Assembly (NCBI GenBank): GCA_021372315.1
Contig: JAJFUT010000099.1
Location: forward strand, 1-37,685
Origin: Methanobacteriota archaeon
GTDB taxonomy: Archaea > Thermoplasmatota > Thermoplasmata > Methanomassiliicoccales > UBA472
Length of the DNA: 37,685 nt
Direction: 5' to 3'
The stretch's first letter is position 1; every line of letters begins with the position of its first letter. Under the pieces are notes generated by a model, which was not told the DNA's origin, searched no databases, and saw only the letters and a list, made by a program, of their open reading frames with translations. The position numbers and the translations under genes were made by a program. Shown one piece after another: positions 53 through 7,480 of this stretch.

Positions 53-1057
53 TCAATTCTTGCTCACCATAGCGATGTTGGACACGTATGATGTCTCGGT
101 CAGCTCGGCCGATGACCCGGAGGCTTCCTTGGCGTAACCGATCCCAACGTATCCGACGCCGCCTGCGGAGTTCTCGACCTCAGGGATGATCAGCGCATTT
201 GAGTTGAACTGCAACATGGACGACGCGTAGTCCTCCTTCTGCCTCAGGACCATGTCCTTGAACGAGGCATAGCTGCCGGAGGCACTGTCCCTGCCATAGA
301 GGGAGATCGCCAGATCGTCGCCGCCCACCTGGTTCCAGTTCGTGATCGTTCCATTGAAGATCCCTTCAAGCTGGGTCAGGGTCAGAGTGTCGACCGGGTT
401 GTCCTCGTTGACTATGATGGCTATTCCGTCGACTGCCACCTTCCACTCGACTGGGTTGACACCTTTCTCGATCGCCAGAACTTTCTCAGCGTCTGTCATG
501 GCCCTAGAGGCTTGCGCCACCTCGACCTCTCCTTGGTAGAAGCTCTTGATGCCGGCCCCGGAACCGGGCGTCGATAACGTCACGGTGTAATCCGTGTCCT
601 TCTCGAACTCGGCTGCCCACAAAGTTGCGATTTCGGCCATCGTCGTAGACCCGGACTCTTTGAAGTCACCTGTCACATCGGTGTTATTTCCTGTAGCTAA
701 CATTGACTTCATTTCAGCGAGGTCGCTCGGCTGGAGGCTATAGAATCCCGCGTTCTCGACAAGCTGTTGACCGGTCTCGTTCAGAACGAGGTTGAGCCAC
801 AGATAGAGCGATGTACCCTCGGCTGGAACACCGTCAGTGTAGAGATATAGATATCTCGACAGAGAGTAGTTGCCGTCATAAACCGCGGCTTGATCCAGTG
901 GCGAATATGCAACGGAGCTGTCTGTTTTCTTGAGTGAGATTATCTTCACGGTTTGAGCGTTGTCATCGGAACTGTTGTTCATCGTCAAGCCGACAAATGC
1001 AGCGACGATAAGGATAGCGACGATTCCGACGGCTATGTACATATTTTTCTTTTCCAT
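53..1057 (-). CDS. pstS: PstS-like phosphate-binding protein, circularly permuted
   Basis: This 334-residue protein is anchored by a hydrophobic N-terminal helix (about residues 6-24) with no lipobox cysteine. It would bind phosphate outside the membrane for an ABC importer. PstS hallmarks are present but in the wrong order. The segment that normally ends PstS (YSLSRYLYLYTDG, 64-76; GQQLVENAGFYSL, 96-108) comes first. The normal beginning follows: SGSTT (135-139), GSGAGIKSFYQG (165-176), DGIAIIVN (210-217), the NGTITNW region (235-241), GRDSASGSY (255-263) and GGVGYVGIGYA (299-309), and the protein ends there. All ligand-loop motifs are retained, so it looks functional. A GGTGATC ribosome site precedes the ATG. 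The divergent phoU gene supports a phosphate role. No pstCAB genes are visible before the window edge. Confidence 0.85.
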   Translation of the reverse strand: MEKKNMYIAVGIVAILIVAAFVGLTMNNSSDDNAQTVKIISLKKTDSSVAYSPLDQAAVYDGNYSLSRYLYLYTDGVPAEGTSLYLWLNLVLNETGQQLVENAGFYSLQPSDLAEMKSMLATGNNTDVTGDFKESGSTTMAEIATLWAAEFEKDTDYTVTLSTPGSGAGIKSFYQGEVEVAQASRAMTDAEKVLAIEKGVNPVEWKVAVDGIAIIVNEDNPVDTLTLTQLEGIFNGTITNWNQVGGDDLAISLYGRDSASGSYASFKDMVLRQKEDYASSMLQFNSNALIIPEVENSAGGVGYVGIGYAKEASGSSAELTETSYVSNIAMVSKN

Positions 1058-1282: not shown

Positions 1283-1322
1283 ACACTTATCTAAGGAGTG
1301 AACAGAACAGGAGGCCGTGGAC

Positions 1323-2336
1323 ATGGAGATAAGAAAGGTACAGAAGACCGGGGCGTCGACCATGACGGTGTCGCTGCCGAAGAGCTGGGTCGACCAGCAT
1401 GGGTTGAAGCCCGGAGACCCGGTCTCCATGATCACGCTCCCCGATGGGACCATCAGCATCGATCCGAAGAGAGAGAAGCGCAAGGACTCGTCGAAGAGGG
1501 TGATTTGGGCGGACGACAAGGAATCGTCCGAGCACCTGATCCGCAAGATGATCGGGGCCTACCTTGCAGGTTTCAATCTGATAGAGATCAGGTCCAAGGA
1601 GCGCCTTGACCATAACATCAAGCAAGCGATAAAGGACTTCGCAAAACTTGCCATAGGCCCGGAGGTCATAGAGGAGACGAGCAACGTCATCGTGCTCCAC
1701 GACCTGTCGGACCCTGTCGAACTGCCTCAGGAAAAGTGCGTCAGGAGGATGCACCTCATCGTCAGTTCGATGCACAAGGACACGATGGAAGCGCTGAACC
1801 CTTACGATACAGGCCTCGCTCACGACATCATCGACAGGGACGTCGACGTCGACAGGCTCTACTGGATGGCGGTGAAGCAGTACAACCTCATCATCAGGGA
1901 CAGGAGGCTTTCTGAGAAGATCGGCGTCGATATCTTCCAGGGCATGGACCTCGTGACCGTTGCAAGGGGCATAGAGAGGATAGGCGATCACGCCGAGAAG
2001 ATCTCGAAGAACATCATCCTGGCCGAGGAACAGGAGATCAAGCTAGAGAACGCCGACGAGCTGAAGAAGCTCTCCAAGGCGGCTTTGAGCATACTTGACG
2101 CGGGCATCGATTCCTTCTTCCAAAAGAACATCAAGAACGCAAATTCAACGATCGATTCTGGCAAGCTCGTCACGGTCGAATGCGAGAAGCTGTCCGCTTC
2201 CACGAGGATCAAGAACACTCAGGCCGGCGTTATTTTCAACTCGATCATCGACAGCCTCATCAGGACGACGATGTACGGCATGGACATAGCCGAGATAGCG
2301 ATCAATGCGGCCATGAGGGACGGGGACAGCAAATGA
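1323..2336 (+). CDS. phoU: PhoU-family phosphate regulator with N-terminal AbrB/SpoVT domain
   Basis: This 337-residue archaeal PhoU-type protein starts with a swapped-hairpin AbrB/SpoVT DNA-binding domain (about residues 1-45; KTGASTMTVSLPKSWV is typical). Two helical PhoU repeats follow (about 105-205 and 215-330), with the DHAEKISK stretch typical of the metal-binding second repeat. PhoU proteins restrain phosphate uptake; with an AbrB domain this one may also bind DNA and could act on the adjacent palindromes (inference). A GTG at 1317 is also possible, but AGGAGG at 1309-1314 lies 2 nt from it and 8 nt from the ATG at 1323, so the ATG is preferred. It is divergent from the pstS-like gene. 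Confidence 0.88.
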   Translation: MEIRKVQKTGASTMTVSLPKSWVDQHGLKPGDPVSMITLPDGTISIDPKREKRKDSSKRVIWADDKESSEHLIRKMIGAYLAGFNLIEIRSKERLDHNIKQAIKDFAKLAIGPEVIEETSNVIVLHDLSDPVELPQEKCVRRMHLIVSSMHKDTMEALNPYDTGLAHDIIDRDVDVDRLYWMAVKQYNLIIRDRRLSEKIGVDIFQGMDLVTVARGIERIGDHAEKISKNIILAEEQEIKLENADELKKLSKAALSILDAGIDSFFQKNIKNANSTIDSGKLVTVECEKLSASTRIKNTQAGVIFNSIIDSLIRTTMYGMDIAEIAINAAMRDGDSK

Positions 2337-2440: not shown

Positions 2441-2488
2441 ACTCAAATGATTTTTCAAGCGCCGTTAAGACGTAAGGAGGATCATACA

Positions 2489-4426
2489 TTGGGAGACGAA
2501 TTACCGGAGATCATCTCGGTCGAATGTCTCAGAGTTCCAGCGAAACACCTGAAACCTGAGGATATCGACCAGAAGGTAGAGGACAGGGCACTGGACAGAA
2601 CAACAAAAGAGGTCCTGAAAAAGACGATGAAGGAGGGGACGGACACCGTTTGGGACCGATTCGAGAGGCAACAGCCTCCGTGCAAGTTCTGTTCCGAAGG
2701 CATCTCATGCCAGCGTTGCGCGATGGGCCCATGCAGATTGATGGGCGGCGATCGGACGAGAGGGGTATGCGGTGCCGATGCCGATCTCATGGTCGCAAGA
2801 AATCTTCTCGACACGATAGCTACCGGGGCCGCTTCGCACTCCGACCATGGCAGGGAGGTCGTGGAGACCCTTCTCAAGGCGGCGAGGGGTCATGCTGCCG
2901 GATACGGTGTCAAGGACGAGGAGAAGCTCAAGCGCCTGGCTGCCGAGTACGGGATCGATGCGGGTCTGCCGATCAACAAGATGGCGGAGAAGCTTGCCCT
3001 GGCGATGCTGGAGGAGTTCGGCACCATCAAGGGAACGATGCAGATGCCTAACCGGGCGCCGGCTGAGGACATCGAGCTCTGGAAGGCGGCGAAGATACTG
3101 CCCCGGAGCATCGACCGGGAGGTCGTCGAGGCGATGCACCGCGTTCATATGGGGGTCGGCGCCGAATACAATGGGTTCCTGCAACAGGGCATGAGGGCGT
3201 CAATGGCCGACGGATGGGGCGGGTCCATGATGGGGACGGAGATATCGGACGTCCTCTTCGGAACCCCTGACATCAACCGTTCGAAGGTCAACCTAGGCGT
3301 ACTGAAGCACGACGAGGTCAACATCTCGCTGCACGGGCACAATCCGATCCTGTCCGAGATGGTTATCAAGGTCGCTGGTATGCCGGAGATGATCGAGAGG
3401 GCGAAGAGCGTCGGCGCCAAGGGGATCAACCTCGTCGGCCTCTGCTGCACGGGGAACGAACTTCTGATGAGGAAGGGCATCCATCAGGCCGGGAACCACA
3501 TGGACCAGGAGCTTGTGATCACCACGGGCGCTCTGGAGGTGATGATAGTCGACTACCAGTGCATATTCCCGACCCTCGCGAACACGGCCGCATGCTACCA
3601 TACGAAGCTGTTCTCCACGTCCCCGAAGGCGACCATCTCCGGTAGCTATTACATGGAGATAACGCCTGAGAACGCCTACGAACAATCGAGGAAGATGGTG
3701 ATCGCGGCCATCGACAACTACCCGAACAGGGTACCGGAGCGCGTCCTGATACCGGACAAGCCGATGGACGCCATGGTGGGCTTCTCGGTCGAGGCGATCA
3801 AGAAGGCGCTGGGAGGCAGCCTGAAACCGTTGCTGGATGTGATCGTGTCGGGCAAGATAAGGGGATGCGTAGGCATCGTCGGGTGCAACAACCCCCACGT
3901 CAAGCATGACTACGGACATGTGACGCTGGCGAAGGAGCTGATCAAGAGGGACATCCTTTGTGTCGAGACGGGGTGCTCGTCCATCGCGTGCGCGAAGGCG
4001 GGGCTCATGCAGCCCGAATCGATAGAGCTAGCCGGAAAGGGATTGAAGGAGGTTTGCGGTTCATTGGGGATCCCGCCGGTGCTTCACATGGGCTCCTGCG
4101 TGGACAATTCCAGGATACTCACGCTCGCTGCCGAGCTGGCGAAGATGGCGAACGTCAGGATCGACCAGCTGCCGATAGCGGGCGCGGCCCCCGAATGGTA
4201 TTCCCCCAAGGCGGTAGCGATCGGAAGCTATTTCGTCGGCAGCGGGGTGAGCGTCGTTCTCGGGGTGATGCCGCACATCGGAGGGAGCGCCAACGTGGTC
4301 AAGGCATTGACGGATGATATAGAGTCCGCCGTCCATGCGAAGTTCTGGGTCGAGCCGAACCCGAAGAACGCCGCGGCCTTGCTCTTCGATCACATCGAGA
4401 CGAAGAGGAAAGCACTGGGCATGTGA
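2489..4426 (+). CDS. cooS: Monofunctional Ni-Fe carbon monoxide dehydrogenase catalytic subunit
   Basis: This 645-residue CooS interconverts CO and CO2. The N-terminus carries C65-x2-C68 (D-cluster position) then C74, C77, C82 and C94 (B-cluster). C-cluster ligand motifs follow in order: HGHNP, GLCCTGNE, DYQCIFP, GCNNPH, ETGCSS and GSCVDNS; the lysine of the SPKAVAIG motif and the ASHSDHG stretch are also present. The residue that is the second D-cluster cysteine in the CX7C type is serine 73 here, giving the CX2C type. A TTG start at 2489 is chosen because AAGGAGG (2474-2480) sits 8 nt upstream; an ATG at 2447 in frame lacks such a site. No cooF ferredoxin, cooC maturation factor or acetyl-CoA synthase gene is adjacent, so partners and physiological direction are unknown. 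Confidence 0.93.
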   Translation: MGDELPEIISVECLRVPAKHLKPEDIDQKVEDRALDRTTKEVLKKTMKEGTDTVWDRFERQQPPCKFCSEGISCQRCAMGPCRLMGGDRTRGVCGADADLMVARNLLDTIATGAASHSDHGREVVETLLKAARGHAAGYGVKDEEKLKRLAAEYGIDAGLPINKMAEKLALAMLEEFGTIKGTMQMPNRAPAEDIELWKAAKILPRSIDREVVEAMHRVHMGVGAEYNGFLQQGMRASMADGWGGSMMGTEISDVLFGTPDINRSKVNLGVLKHDEVNISLHGHNPILSEMVIKVAGMPEMIERAKSVGAKGINLVGLCCTGNELLMRKGIHQAGNHMDQELVITTGALEVMIVDYQCIFPTLANTAACYHTKLFSTSPKATISGSYYMEITPENAYEQSRKMVIAAIDNYPNRVPERVLIPDKPMDAMVGFSVEAIKKALGGSLKPLLDVIVSGKIRGCVGIVGCNNPHVKHDYGHVTLAKELIKRDILCVETGCSSIACAKAGLMQPESIELAGKGLKEVCGSLGIPPVLHMGSCVDNSRILTLAAELAKMANVRIDQLPIAGAAPEWYSPKAVAIGSYFVGSGVSVVLGVMPHIGGSANVVKALTDDIESAVHAKFWVEPNPKNAAALLFDHIETKRKALGM

Positions 4427-4451
4427 GAGCAAACGATTTTCGTCGGACCTC

Positions 4452-4490
4452 GAAAGGAAGGCGAAGGCCGACCTTTCCCGGTCATTCTTT
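4452..4490. terminator. Possible shared terminator between convergent cooS and leuD
   Basis: GAAAGG (4452-4457) can pair with CCTTTC (4472-4477) around a GC-rich loop, followed by TTCTTT on the plus strand. The stem is short and the assignment is weak. It rests mainly on its place between two converging genes. Confidence 0.25.
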
Positions 4491-4529
4491 ATCACCGAAC
4501 TAAAAGTAAGGAAAGAGGTTTTGGCCGGC

Positions 4530-5033
4530 TCATAGATTGAACCCGCCGTACTTCTTGAAGTGCTCGGCCAGTCCGCCATCGTTGAGGATCTTCACCATGA
4601 CCGGGGGCAGCGCGACCGCCTTGATCTCGATACCCTTCGTCTTGTTGACGACGACCCCCTTCTCAAGGTCGACGAACAGCTCGTCGCCCTCCTCTATCTT
4701 CGAGGTGTCGCACTCGATGACCGGCAGTCCGACGTTGATGCAGTTCCTGAAGAATATCCTGGCGAAGGACTTGGCCAGCACAGCGCTGATGCCCGCTGCC
4801 TGGATGACCAGCGGCGCCTGCTCCCTGCTGGAGCCCATGCCGAAGTTCTCCCCTCCGACGATGAAGTTGCCGTTCTTGATCTCCTTGTGGAAACCGGGCC
4901 TGATGTCCTCCATCAGGTGCGTCGAGAGGTCCTTCATGTCGGTGCTCTTGAACTTGTACTTGCCGCTGATGATGTAGTCGGTGTTGATGTTCTTGCCGAA
5001 CACGTGCGCGTTGCCTCTCATCTGCGTCTGCAT
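4530..5033 (-). CDS. leuD: Isopropylmalate/homoaconitate dehydratase small subunit (swivel domain)
   Basis: This 167-residue small subunit of an aconitase-family hydro-lyase contributes the swivelling domain to the LeuC partner. It has NINTDYIISGKYKF near the N-terminus and the GSSREQAP motif. The loop that sets substrate choice in archaeal small subunits reads YKFK (residues 26-29), unlike YLVY or YLRT known from Methanocaldococcus isopropylmalate and homoaconitate enzymes, so the substrate is open. Two adjacent ATGs exist: 5036 overlaps the leuC stop as ATGA, but GGAGGTG is better spaced (5 nt) for 5033. Last gene of the three-gene minus-strand operon. Confidence 0.85.
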   Translation of the reverse strand: MQTQMRGNAHVFGKNINTDYIISGKYKFKSTDMKDLSTHLMEDIRPGFHKEIKNGNFIVGGENFGMGSSREQAPLVIQAAGISAVLAKSFARIFFRNCINVGLPVIECDTSKIEEGDELFVDLEKGVVVNKTKGIEIKAVALPPVMVKILNDGGLAEHFKKYGGFNL

Positions 5034-6283
5034 CATAGCACCTCCCTTGGGTCGGCGATGCATCCCTTGATGGCGCTGTAGGCCGCGGTCGCCGGACTGG
5101 ACAGATAGATGTCGGCCTTGGTGTTGCCCATGCGCCCCTTGAAGTTGCGGTTGGCTGTGGACAGGACGTTCTCGCCATCCGACGGTACGCCGTTGCAGGT
5201 CCCGACGCACGGTCCGCAGGACGGGGACAATACGGTGGCCCCTGCCTTAACGAGCTTGCCGATGATGCCCGTCTCGAGCCCCTGGGTCAGTATCATCTTA
5301 GACGACGGGGCGACGATCAGGCGCGTGCTCTTGTTGACCGTCTTCCCATCGAGGATCTTCGCTGCGATCTCCAGGTCCTCGTACCTGCCGTTGGTGCAGG
5401 TTCCGATGTAGATCTGGTCGAGCGGCAGCCCGGCCACCTTATCGATCGGGACGACGTTGTCCACGTCGGGCGGGCAGGCGATCTGCGGGCTCATGTCGCT
5501 CAGGTCCTCGACGATGACGCGCTCGTACTTCGCGTCCATCGTGGCGTACACGGGCTTGAACGGCACCTTGGTCTTGTCGGCCAGGTACTTGACGGTCTTC
5601 TCGTCGCAGGCCATGAGCCCGGCCTTGGCGCCGGTCTCGACGGCCAGGTTCGAGATCGTCATCCTCGCGTCGACGCTCATCGCGTCTATGACGTCCCCGT
5701 ATATCTCCAACGCCTTGTACGTGGCGCCGTTGGACGTGAGCGTCCCGACCATATGGAGCGCGACGTCCTTGGAGTATACGCCCTTCTGCAGCTTCCCGTC
5801 GTAGACGAGCTTTATCGTCTCTGGCACCTTGAACCACATCTTCCCGCTTATGAGCGCGGCGGCCATGTCCGTCGAGCCCACGCCGGAGCTGAACACGTTC
5901 AGCGCGCCATAGGTCGTCGTGTGCGAGTCGGCGCCGATGACGATCATTCCCGGTGCGACCTTCCCCGACTCGGGCAGCAGCGTGTGGCACACGCCCTCCC
6001 CGATGTCGTAGAGCTTCACCCCGTGCTTCTTGGCGAACTCCCTCATCTTCTTGTGAAGGTTCGAAACGCCTTCGATCGGCGACGGGACGTTGTGGTCGAT
6101 GACGATGGAGTACTTGGACGGGTCCAACACCTTCTGCCCGTTCATGTCCTCGAACGCCTTGATCGTCAACGGCGTTGTGCCGTCCTGGCTCATCATATAG
6201 TCAACTGGCGCGACGACTATCTCTCCGGCCTTGACGGCCTTCCCGACGTGCGCCGATAGTATCTCCTCAGCGATGCTGCCCAT
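5033..6283 (-). CDS. leuC: Isopropylmalate/homoaconitate dehydratase large subunit
   Basis: This 416-residue large subunit of the 3-isopropylmalate dehydratase/homoaconitase family would bind a [4Fe-4S] cluster through the cysteine of YIGTCTNGR and the CxxC of SPSCGPCVGT; GADSHTTTYGA is also typical. With LeuD it isomerises a 2-hydroxy tricarboxylate or isopropylmalate. The ATG at 6283 is favoured over the GTG at 6292 because an AAGGTG site is 8 nt away. It begins 18 nt after the NifV-like synthase, and its TGA overlaps the first leuD ATG. The upstream synthase resembles homocitrate synthases, so homoaconitate may be the substrate rather than isopropylmalate. Confidence 0.87.
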   Translation of the reverse strand: MGSIAEEILSAHVGKAVKAGEIVVAPVDYMMSQDGTTPLTIKAFEDMNGQKVLDPSKYSIVIDHNVPSPIEGVSNLHKKMREFAKKHGVKLYDIGEGVCHTLLPESGKVAPGMIVIGADSHTTTYGALNVFSSGVGSTDMAAALISGKMWFKVPETIKLVYDGKLQKGVYSKDVALHMVGTLTSNGATYKALEIYGDVIDAMSVDARMTISNLAVETGAKAGLMACDEKTVKYLADKTKVPFKPVYATMDAKYERVIVEDLSDMSPQIACPPDVDNVVPIDKVAGLPLDQIYIGTCTNGRYEDLEIAAKILDGKTVNKSTRLIVAPSSKMILTQGLETGIIGKLVKAGATVLSPSCGPCVGTCNGVPSDGENVLSTANRNFKGRMGNTKADIYLSSPATAAYSAIKGCIADPREVL

Positions 6284-6301
6284 TGTGATCACACCTTTTC
6301 C

Positions 6302-7480
6302 TTAGTCTTTCAGCTTGTGGATCTGACCGTTCTTGTAGTCCTCGTACATGTAGCCGAGCTCGAGCTCGGTCAGCGAGCGCTTCAAGGCGATGGAGTTTGC
6401 ACGGACGTGCTCGAGCAGGACGCCGGACGCTTCGTCGTCGACCTCGTACCCGTTCTTCTCAAGTATCTGCTTGATCGTGTGACGCCCAGAGTGCTTCCCG
6501 ATGACGATCTTGCGCTGGAGACCCACTTCCTCCGGGGAGTACGGCTCGTAGTTGCTGAGGTACTTTATGACGCCATCGGTGTGTATGCCCGCCTCGTGGG
6601 CGAAGCAGTTCTCGCCGACTATCGGCTTCCATCCCGGGATCGTCCTCCCGGCCGCCCTGGCGACGTAATCCGAGACCTCCCGGAACCTCTTGGTATCGAA
6701 ATCGACGTCCATCTTGAGGATGTGCCTCGCGGCCATCGCTATCTCCTCGAGCGGGCTGTTACCGGTCCTCTCGCCTATCCCGAGGACGGTCGTCGAAGCG
6801 AACCTGGCCCCCGCCTGGATGCCAGCGATGGCATTGGCCGTGGCCATTCCGAAGTCGTTGTGCGTGTGCATCTCGACGTCGATCTTGGCGTTCTCGATGA
6901 TGTACTTAATATCGTCGTATGTGCGGCGGGGGTCCTGCATGCCTATCGTGTCGCAATAGCGGAACCTATGCGCGCCCGCCTCCTTGGCCGTCTTTGCGAA
7001 GGTGATCAGGAAGTCCCTGTCCGCCCTCGACGCGTCCTCGGCGTTGCACGAGATATAGAGGCCGTGAGCCTTGGCGTGCTCTATCGCCTCCGTGATCCTT
7101 TCCAGGACCCATTCCCTGGACTTCATCAACTTGTGCTGGATGTGAATATCTGAAGATGACATCGATATGGCCACTGAGTCGACGTCGCAGTCGATGCTCT
7201 GGTCGATGTCCTCCTTGTTCGCCCTGTTCCATCCTAGGATCGATGCTTCCAGTCCAAGCCCGGCAATTTTCTTGATCGCTTTCTTCTCATCCCCGCCCAT
7301 CGCCGGGATCCCCGCCTCGATCTGCTGCACTCCGATCTCGTCGAGAAGCTTAGCTATGCGCAGCTTCTCCAGATTGGCGAACACTATGCCTGCCGCCTGT
7401 TCCCCATCTCTGAGCGTCGTGTCGCAGATTACCAGCGGGTACTGGTTCAATTTTGCCAGGATCTTTGAGCTGTCCTTCAT
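6302..7480 (-). CDS. NifV-like homocitrate synthase (isopropylmalate/homocitrate synthase family)
   Basis: This 392-residue DRE-TIM acyl-CoA lyase condenses acetyl-CoA with a 2-oxo acid. CDTTLRDGEQ opens the barrel, HTHNDFGMATANA carries the metal-binding histidines, and GENCFAHEAGIHTDG follows. Several stretches fit NifV-type homocitrate synthases better than LeuA: IEAGIPAMG, EDASRAD and AGAHRFRYCDT. The C-terminal leucine-sensing domain of LeuA is absent. Homocitrate could serve nitrogenase cofactor, aminoadipate-type lysine or coenzyme B synthesis; isopropylmalate cannot be excluded. The frame stays open to an ATG at 7594, but a TATA element at 7557-7573 would place transcription start inside that extension, and GGGAAAAGAG precedes the ATG at 7480. 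First gene of the operon with leuC and leuD; no isocitrate-type dehydrogenase follows. Confidence 0.8.
   Translation of the reverse strand: MKDSSKILAKLNQYPLVICDTTLRDGEQAAGIVFANLEKLRIAKLLDEIGVQQIEAGIPAMGGDEKKAIKKIAGLGLEASILGWNRANKEDIDQSIDCDVDSVAISMSSSDIHIQHKLMKSREWVLERITEAIEHAKAHGLYISCNAEDASRADRDFLITFAKTAKEAGAHRFRYCDTIGMQDPRRTYDDIKYIIENAKIDVEMHTHNDFGMATANAIAGIQAGARFASTTVLGIGERTGNSPLEEIAMAARHILKMDVDFDTKRFREVSDYVARAAGRTIPGWKPIVGENCFAHEAGIHTDGVIKYLSNYEPYSPEEVGLQRKIVIGKHSGRHTIKQILEKNGYEVDDEASGVLLEHVRANSIALKRSLTELELGYMYEDYKNGQIHKLKD

Follow-up and report, generated by a model that had tools for sequence, protein, structure and literature searches.

A membrane-anchored, circularly permuted PstS-like protein in a Methanomassiliicoccales genome

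We consider it very probable that the gene at the left end of the window (the whole stretch of DNA that was analysed, 37,685 nucleotides) encodes a membrane-anchored, circularly permuted PstS, most likely formed by in-frame tandem duplication of pstS followed by trimming. A circularly permuted PstS had been proposed from the letters alone in the original prediction, and it is now supported by profile matches, structure prediction with a control, homologues of the same order and the operon in which the gene lies.

Results

PstS was divided into three segments: X, from the start of the ordinary protein to the TNW motif; Y, from there onward to GYVGIGY and a helix; and Z, the last ~85 residues. 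The order is X-Y-Z in the ordinary protein and Z-X-Y in the protein of the window. N denotes X-Y and C denotes Z. The features are listed in Table 1.

Table 1. Features of the permuted pstS gene and its surroundings in the window
Feature	Residues	Position	Strand	Length	Basis
Permuted pstS ORF, segment order Z-X-Y		53..1057	-	334 aa	
N-terminal membrane anchor	1-29	971..1057	-		Homologue comparison; low pLDDT
Segment Z, equal to the ordinary PstS C-terminus	36-120	698..952	-		Profile, phmmer, model
Linker from old C-terminus to old N-terminus	121-131	665..697	-		Homologues, model
Segment X, equal to the ordinary PstS N-terminus	132-245	323..664	-		phmmer, motif conservation
Segment Y, up to the cut of the chain in the Y/Z loop	246-314	116..322	-		Motif conservation
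Unconserved low-confidence tail	315-334 + stop	53..115	-		Model, shuffle test
Reverse complement of the start of contig C9, same genome		1..22		22 bases	Exact match
Divergent gene, PhoU-like C-terminal domain, AbrB-like start		1317..2336	+		Relative in L041

The pstS reading frame begins with ATG and ends at a natural stop codon. As had been noticed from the sequence, its N-terminus carries a hydrophobic membrane anchor, similar to the MEKK...anchor that both ordinary and tandem PstS proteins of the same family have. Behind the anchor come the motifs of segment Z (VKIISLKK...SLSRYLYLYTDG...GQQLVENAGFYSL), then those of segment X (SGSTT...PGSGAG...ASR...VAVDGIAIIVN...ITNWNQVG) and segment Y (LYGRDSASGS...GGVGYVGIGYAKEAS). 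The Pfam profile PF12849 matches the protein in two stretches (125 bits; cut-off, 27), as does the NCBIfam PstS-family model TIGR02136, whose better stretch pairs residues 129-325 with model positions 39-238. When phmmer was run against 4pqj and 4omb, residues 127-309 aligned with the first ~200 residues of a chain and residues 36-115 with the last ~80 of that chain, which places the C-part before the N-part, with every piece present once. Both points agree with the original prediction, which had also located the motifs correctly. Chance can be excluded as the source of this order because the N-part E-values are 1e-22 and below and the identical order is found in 24 genomes. The protein departs from the canonical N-to-C order of segments and is, therefore, a permuted variant rather than an ordinary member of the family.

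One detail did not stand. Residues 323-334 had been thought to resemble the linker at residues 36-50, but local alignment of tail against head gave a shuffle p of 0.89, and the same test gave p < 0.05 in only one of eight f1/f5 relatives. A duplication remnant in the C-terminal tail was rejected because the tail aligned no better than shuffled tails, and none is detectable at the ends.

The structure was predicted with AlphaFold2 from an alignment that combined permuted homologues, Z-X-Y stretches from inside tandems and ordinary homologues entered as separate segments. The model has a pLDDT of 87.5 and a pTM of 0.81, with 257 residues at ≥90, and only the anchor and the tail are unsure. The predicted fold is that of a two-lobed type II binding protein. 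It closes with high confidence, so the concern that the chain might fail to form such a fold was not borne out. The model of an ordinary relative (L060), used as the control, has identical helices and strands in rotated order, and the cut of the permutant falls between its H212-218 and E221-226. Foldseek aligned the permuted model with 4omb over about 199 columns (TMq 0.49) and the ordinary control over 290 columns (TMq 0.83). Since Foldseek follows chain order, the shorter alignment is what a permutation requires. All 41 PDB matches to the permuted model at E ≤ 0.001 are phosphate-binding proteins.

The distribution of the two orders was then read from loci of Methanomassiliicoccales and two outgroup loci. 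These contained 47 ordinary (NC) and 24 permuted (CN) ORFs; two further ORFs were fragments. Tandem forms of both orders were present: ordinary tandems, XYZXYZ (NCNC), as five ORFs of about 590 aa in five genomes, and permuted tandems, ZXYZXY (CNCN), as five ORFs of about 570 aa, also in five genomes. The search for same-order homologues that had been suggested as a check was, thus, positive, with permuted forms in six genomes of family f1, two of f5, which includes Methanomassiliicoccus, and sixteen of f6, which includes a Methanomethylophilaceae member and has the five permuted tandems in addition. At L202 (G060; 4078-5002), X-Y of the permuted pstS is interrupted by a frame change, so the gene may be a pseudogene or the sequence may contain an error.

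The tandem ORFs are open and conserved, with pst genes downstream where the sequence suffices. The copies within permuted tandems are 86-100% identical in DNA. One of these, L187 at 5115-6788 of the single-contig genome G097, is a CNCN form with copies 100% identical in DNA; the duplication may be very recent, or gene conversion may still be at work. Complete loci had only the NC, CN, NCNC and CNCN forms, and no half-trimmed intermediates (N-C-N or C-N-C) were seen among them.

If permutation goes through duplication, functional tandem intermediates are expected (PMC3320104). By this route, pstS would have been duplicated in frame to give a tandem XYZXYZ, and the first XY behind the anchor and the last Z would then have been lost, leaving Z-X-Y. 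In the window's protein, the old C-terminal segment follows the anchor, a short linker joins the old termini and the new cut is in the loop that comes behind the GYVGIGYA strand and its helix. Such a permutant would still close around phosphate and hand it over to PstCA/PstB, whose genes are directly downstream. Of the two standard models (PMC3320104), one is fission and fusion, by which X-Y and Z would have been encoded apart and then joined again in the opposite order. It is improbable here, as no free-standing X-Y or Z polypeptide turned up (the two solitary N matches are fragments next to a frame break) and tandem ORFs of both orders are present. Duplication and trimming is favored because the tandems exist and split genes were not found.

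The ligand-motif residues of PstS (GSTT, GSG, SR, D and R..SGT/S) are present in the protein, and G136, S137, S166, S184, D210, R256, S260 and G261 vary hardly or not at all across 34 permuted and 57 ordinary units. We take these motifs to hold the phosphate ligand, as is established for PstS, and infer that the window's protein binds phosphate. The host is a Methanomassiliicoccales MAG, 95.7% complete and in 127 contigs, and 52 bases separate pstS from the left edge of the window, which is an end of contig G000:C123. After the 22-bp overlap, contig C9 continues with pstC, pstA, pstB (TIGR00972) and phoU. The overlap, therefore, supplies the pstCAB genes that had been expected left of position 1 and places the window's pstS at the head of a complete pstCAB-phoU operon. 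Genes for PstC/A and PstB are also downstream in 20 of the 20 permuted single-copy loci with enough sequence. The permuted gene encodes the sole PF12849 protein in G000, G001, G003, G005, G010, G011, G056, G122, G139, G141 and G146.

These data bear on whether the permutant could be a degenerate or non-phosphate binding protein that merely resembles PstS. Its TIGR02136 score, 201.5 bits, is just below the curated cut-off of 206.6, but plausibly because the permutation splits the match into two stretches. With the motif residues conserved and the permuted gene the sole PstS beside pstCAB-phoU in many genomes, this explanation is very unlikely. An assembly artefact, in which a fragmented MAG would have two pstS copies wrongly linked or a tandem reduced to one copy, was feared from the start and would fit the nearby contig end and the number of contigs, but it was rejected with near certainty since Z-X-Y recurs in genomes that include the single-contig G011 and G056, close relatives share 48-67% identity, the contig overlap runs straight into pstC and a collapsed tandem would show X-Y-Z rather than an anchor joined to Z.

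Several neighboring genes were also recorded. A relative of the gene on the plus strand at the right of pstS (Table 1) is divergent to pstS in most homologous loci, and this gene is a possible regulator of the pst operon. Farther along the window, a 659-aa ORF at 2447-4426 (+) looks by eye like a carbon monoxide dehydrogenase catalytic subunit. Elsewhere in the genome and away from the pst operon, L229 (G000:C65; 4717-5589) encodes a second PstB-like ATPase with 361 bits to TIGR00972. PstC and PstA are apparently fused in two f6 loci, L187 (3105-5099) and L201 (5389-7449), as proteins of 660-690 aa, which was checked with NCBIfam in L187 only.

The number of order switches was estimated from a main tree of the concatenated segments (91 units, 273 columns). 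Its well-supported branches force at least six switches in Methanomassiliicoccales, and all the permutants of this order are cut at the same single loop, Y/Z. The simplest reading, with directions inferred, is that Z-X-Y was gained four times: in f1/f5, in G056/G057/G060, in G141-G146 and in the G095-G139 group. There were probably also two reversions to the ordinary order, G044 and G108, which are nested among permutants; that of G108 is the weaker because its position is less clear in the PstB and wider PstS trees. A single clade of all permuted forms was rejected by the AU test (p = 1e-6), and so was a clade of those in f6 alone (p = 2e-33). In the wider tree (170 units), the f1/f5 and f6 permutants are in distant parts of PstS. 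In the PstB tree, which agrees in the main with the families, the permutant clusters are once more apart.

An intact tandem had been proposed as the ancestor of the window's gene. Intact XYZXYZ tandems do exist in five relatives, but none appears to be a direct ancestor, since in the main tree the two copies of each living tandem fall within their own genus-level lineage. The tree, thus, gives no support to direct descent of the window's permutant from a living tandem.

A third order, Y-Z-X, in which the cut is after TNW, was found in the Thermoplasmatota family f48 (twelve loci, L238-L249) and in at least 12 of 398 Bacillota genomes (L270-L277, L281-L284). The two sets are separate clades in the wider tree, and Y-Z-X arose separately in each. 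These proteins have lipoprotein-like N-termini, and pst genes are downstream in nearly all the loci. Apparent long matches in the Bacillota genomes G1002, G978 and G853 turned out to be ordinary XYZ. Two other Bacillota loci, L285 (G1055) and L286 (G1012), have ordinary XYZXYZ tandems in one ORF of 531-544 aa.

A Bacillota Y-Z-X member is co-linear over 259 residues with PDB 4H1X, PstS2 of Streptococcus pneumoniae, a permuted PstS structure that has existed since 2012. Like the window's protein, 4H1X is a PstS chain with circularly permuted parts; it differs in being cut after TNW rather than in the Y/Z loop, and its order is that of other lineages. The chain of 4H1X thus sets a precedent for a permuted PstS. 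The original prediction knew of no described permuted PstS. This holds for the open literature, where no description of one, including 4H1X, was found (a subscription paper could have one), but not for the PDB, which already had the structure.

Discussion

All three cyclic orders of PstS exist: XYZ, ZXY and YZX. In the type II binding-protein topology, the ordinary N-terminus is in lobe I. Both breakpoints, the Y/Z loop and the site after TNW, are probably in lobe II, in which case the anchor would move from lobe I to lobe II. This shift is suggested by the usual topology and the predicted order of elements. A broader proposal, for which we consider the case evenly balanced, is that PstS permutes recurrently and reversibly among the three orders through in-frame tandem duplications that use two fixed loops, each probably part of lobe II. 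With every switch, the protein would become tethered to the membrane by its other lobe and its phosphate site would stay untouched, and some lineages (G044, G108) would have reverted.

Comparison with known systems helps to place these findings. The ordinary PstS proteins of the TIGR02136 subfamily, 4OMB, 4PQJ and 1TWY, share the segments, motifs, fold and operon of the window's protein but have the order X-Y-Z, with the anchor joined to X. TpMglB-2 (Tp0684) is, like the window's PstS, a naturally permuted, membrane-tethered ABC receptor, and it still binds its ligand, glucose; in contrast to PstS, it is a type I glucose-binding protein of another fold class (PMC4990184). Its authors raise adaptation to tethering as a link with permutation, and the available part of their report describes neither tandem intermediates nor repeated origins, unlike what is found here for PstS (PMC4990184). 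By analogy, the permutation of PstS may be linked to membrane tethering, which we offer as a hypothesis.

DNA methyltransferases and saposin/swaposin follow the same model of tandem duplication and then trimming (PMC3320104); PstS differs from them in having the tandem and both end states within one archaeal order, in being a transporter receptor and in switching repeatedly. What appears to be new here is the Y/Z-loop breakpoint, its recurrence, the living tandems and the probable reversions.

As a rule, the duplication route to circular permutation is deduced from its two end points. Since ordinary, tandem, permuted and permuted-tandem forms are present in one methanogen order, as forms of an operon gene that many of its members have in single copy, it can be tested directly which path was taken, whether it can be reversed and how the breakpoint is chosen. 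Also, such genes may be under-annotated, since the window's permutant is just under the NCBIfam cut-off for PstS. The permuted PstS proteins are a natural test of how the point of attachment affects transport by a tethered ABC receptor.
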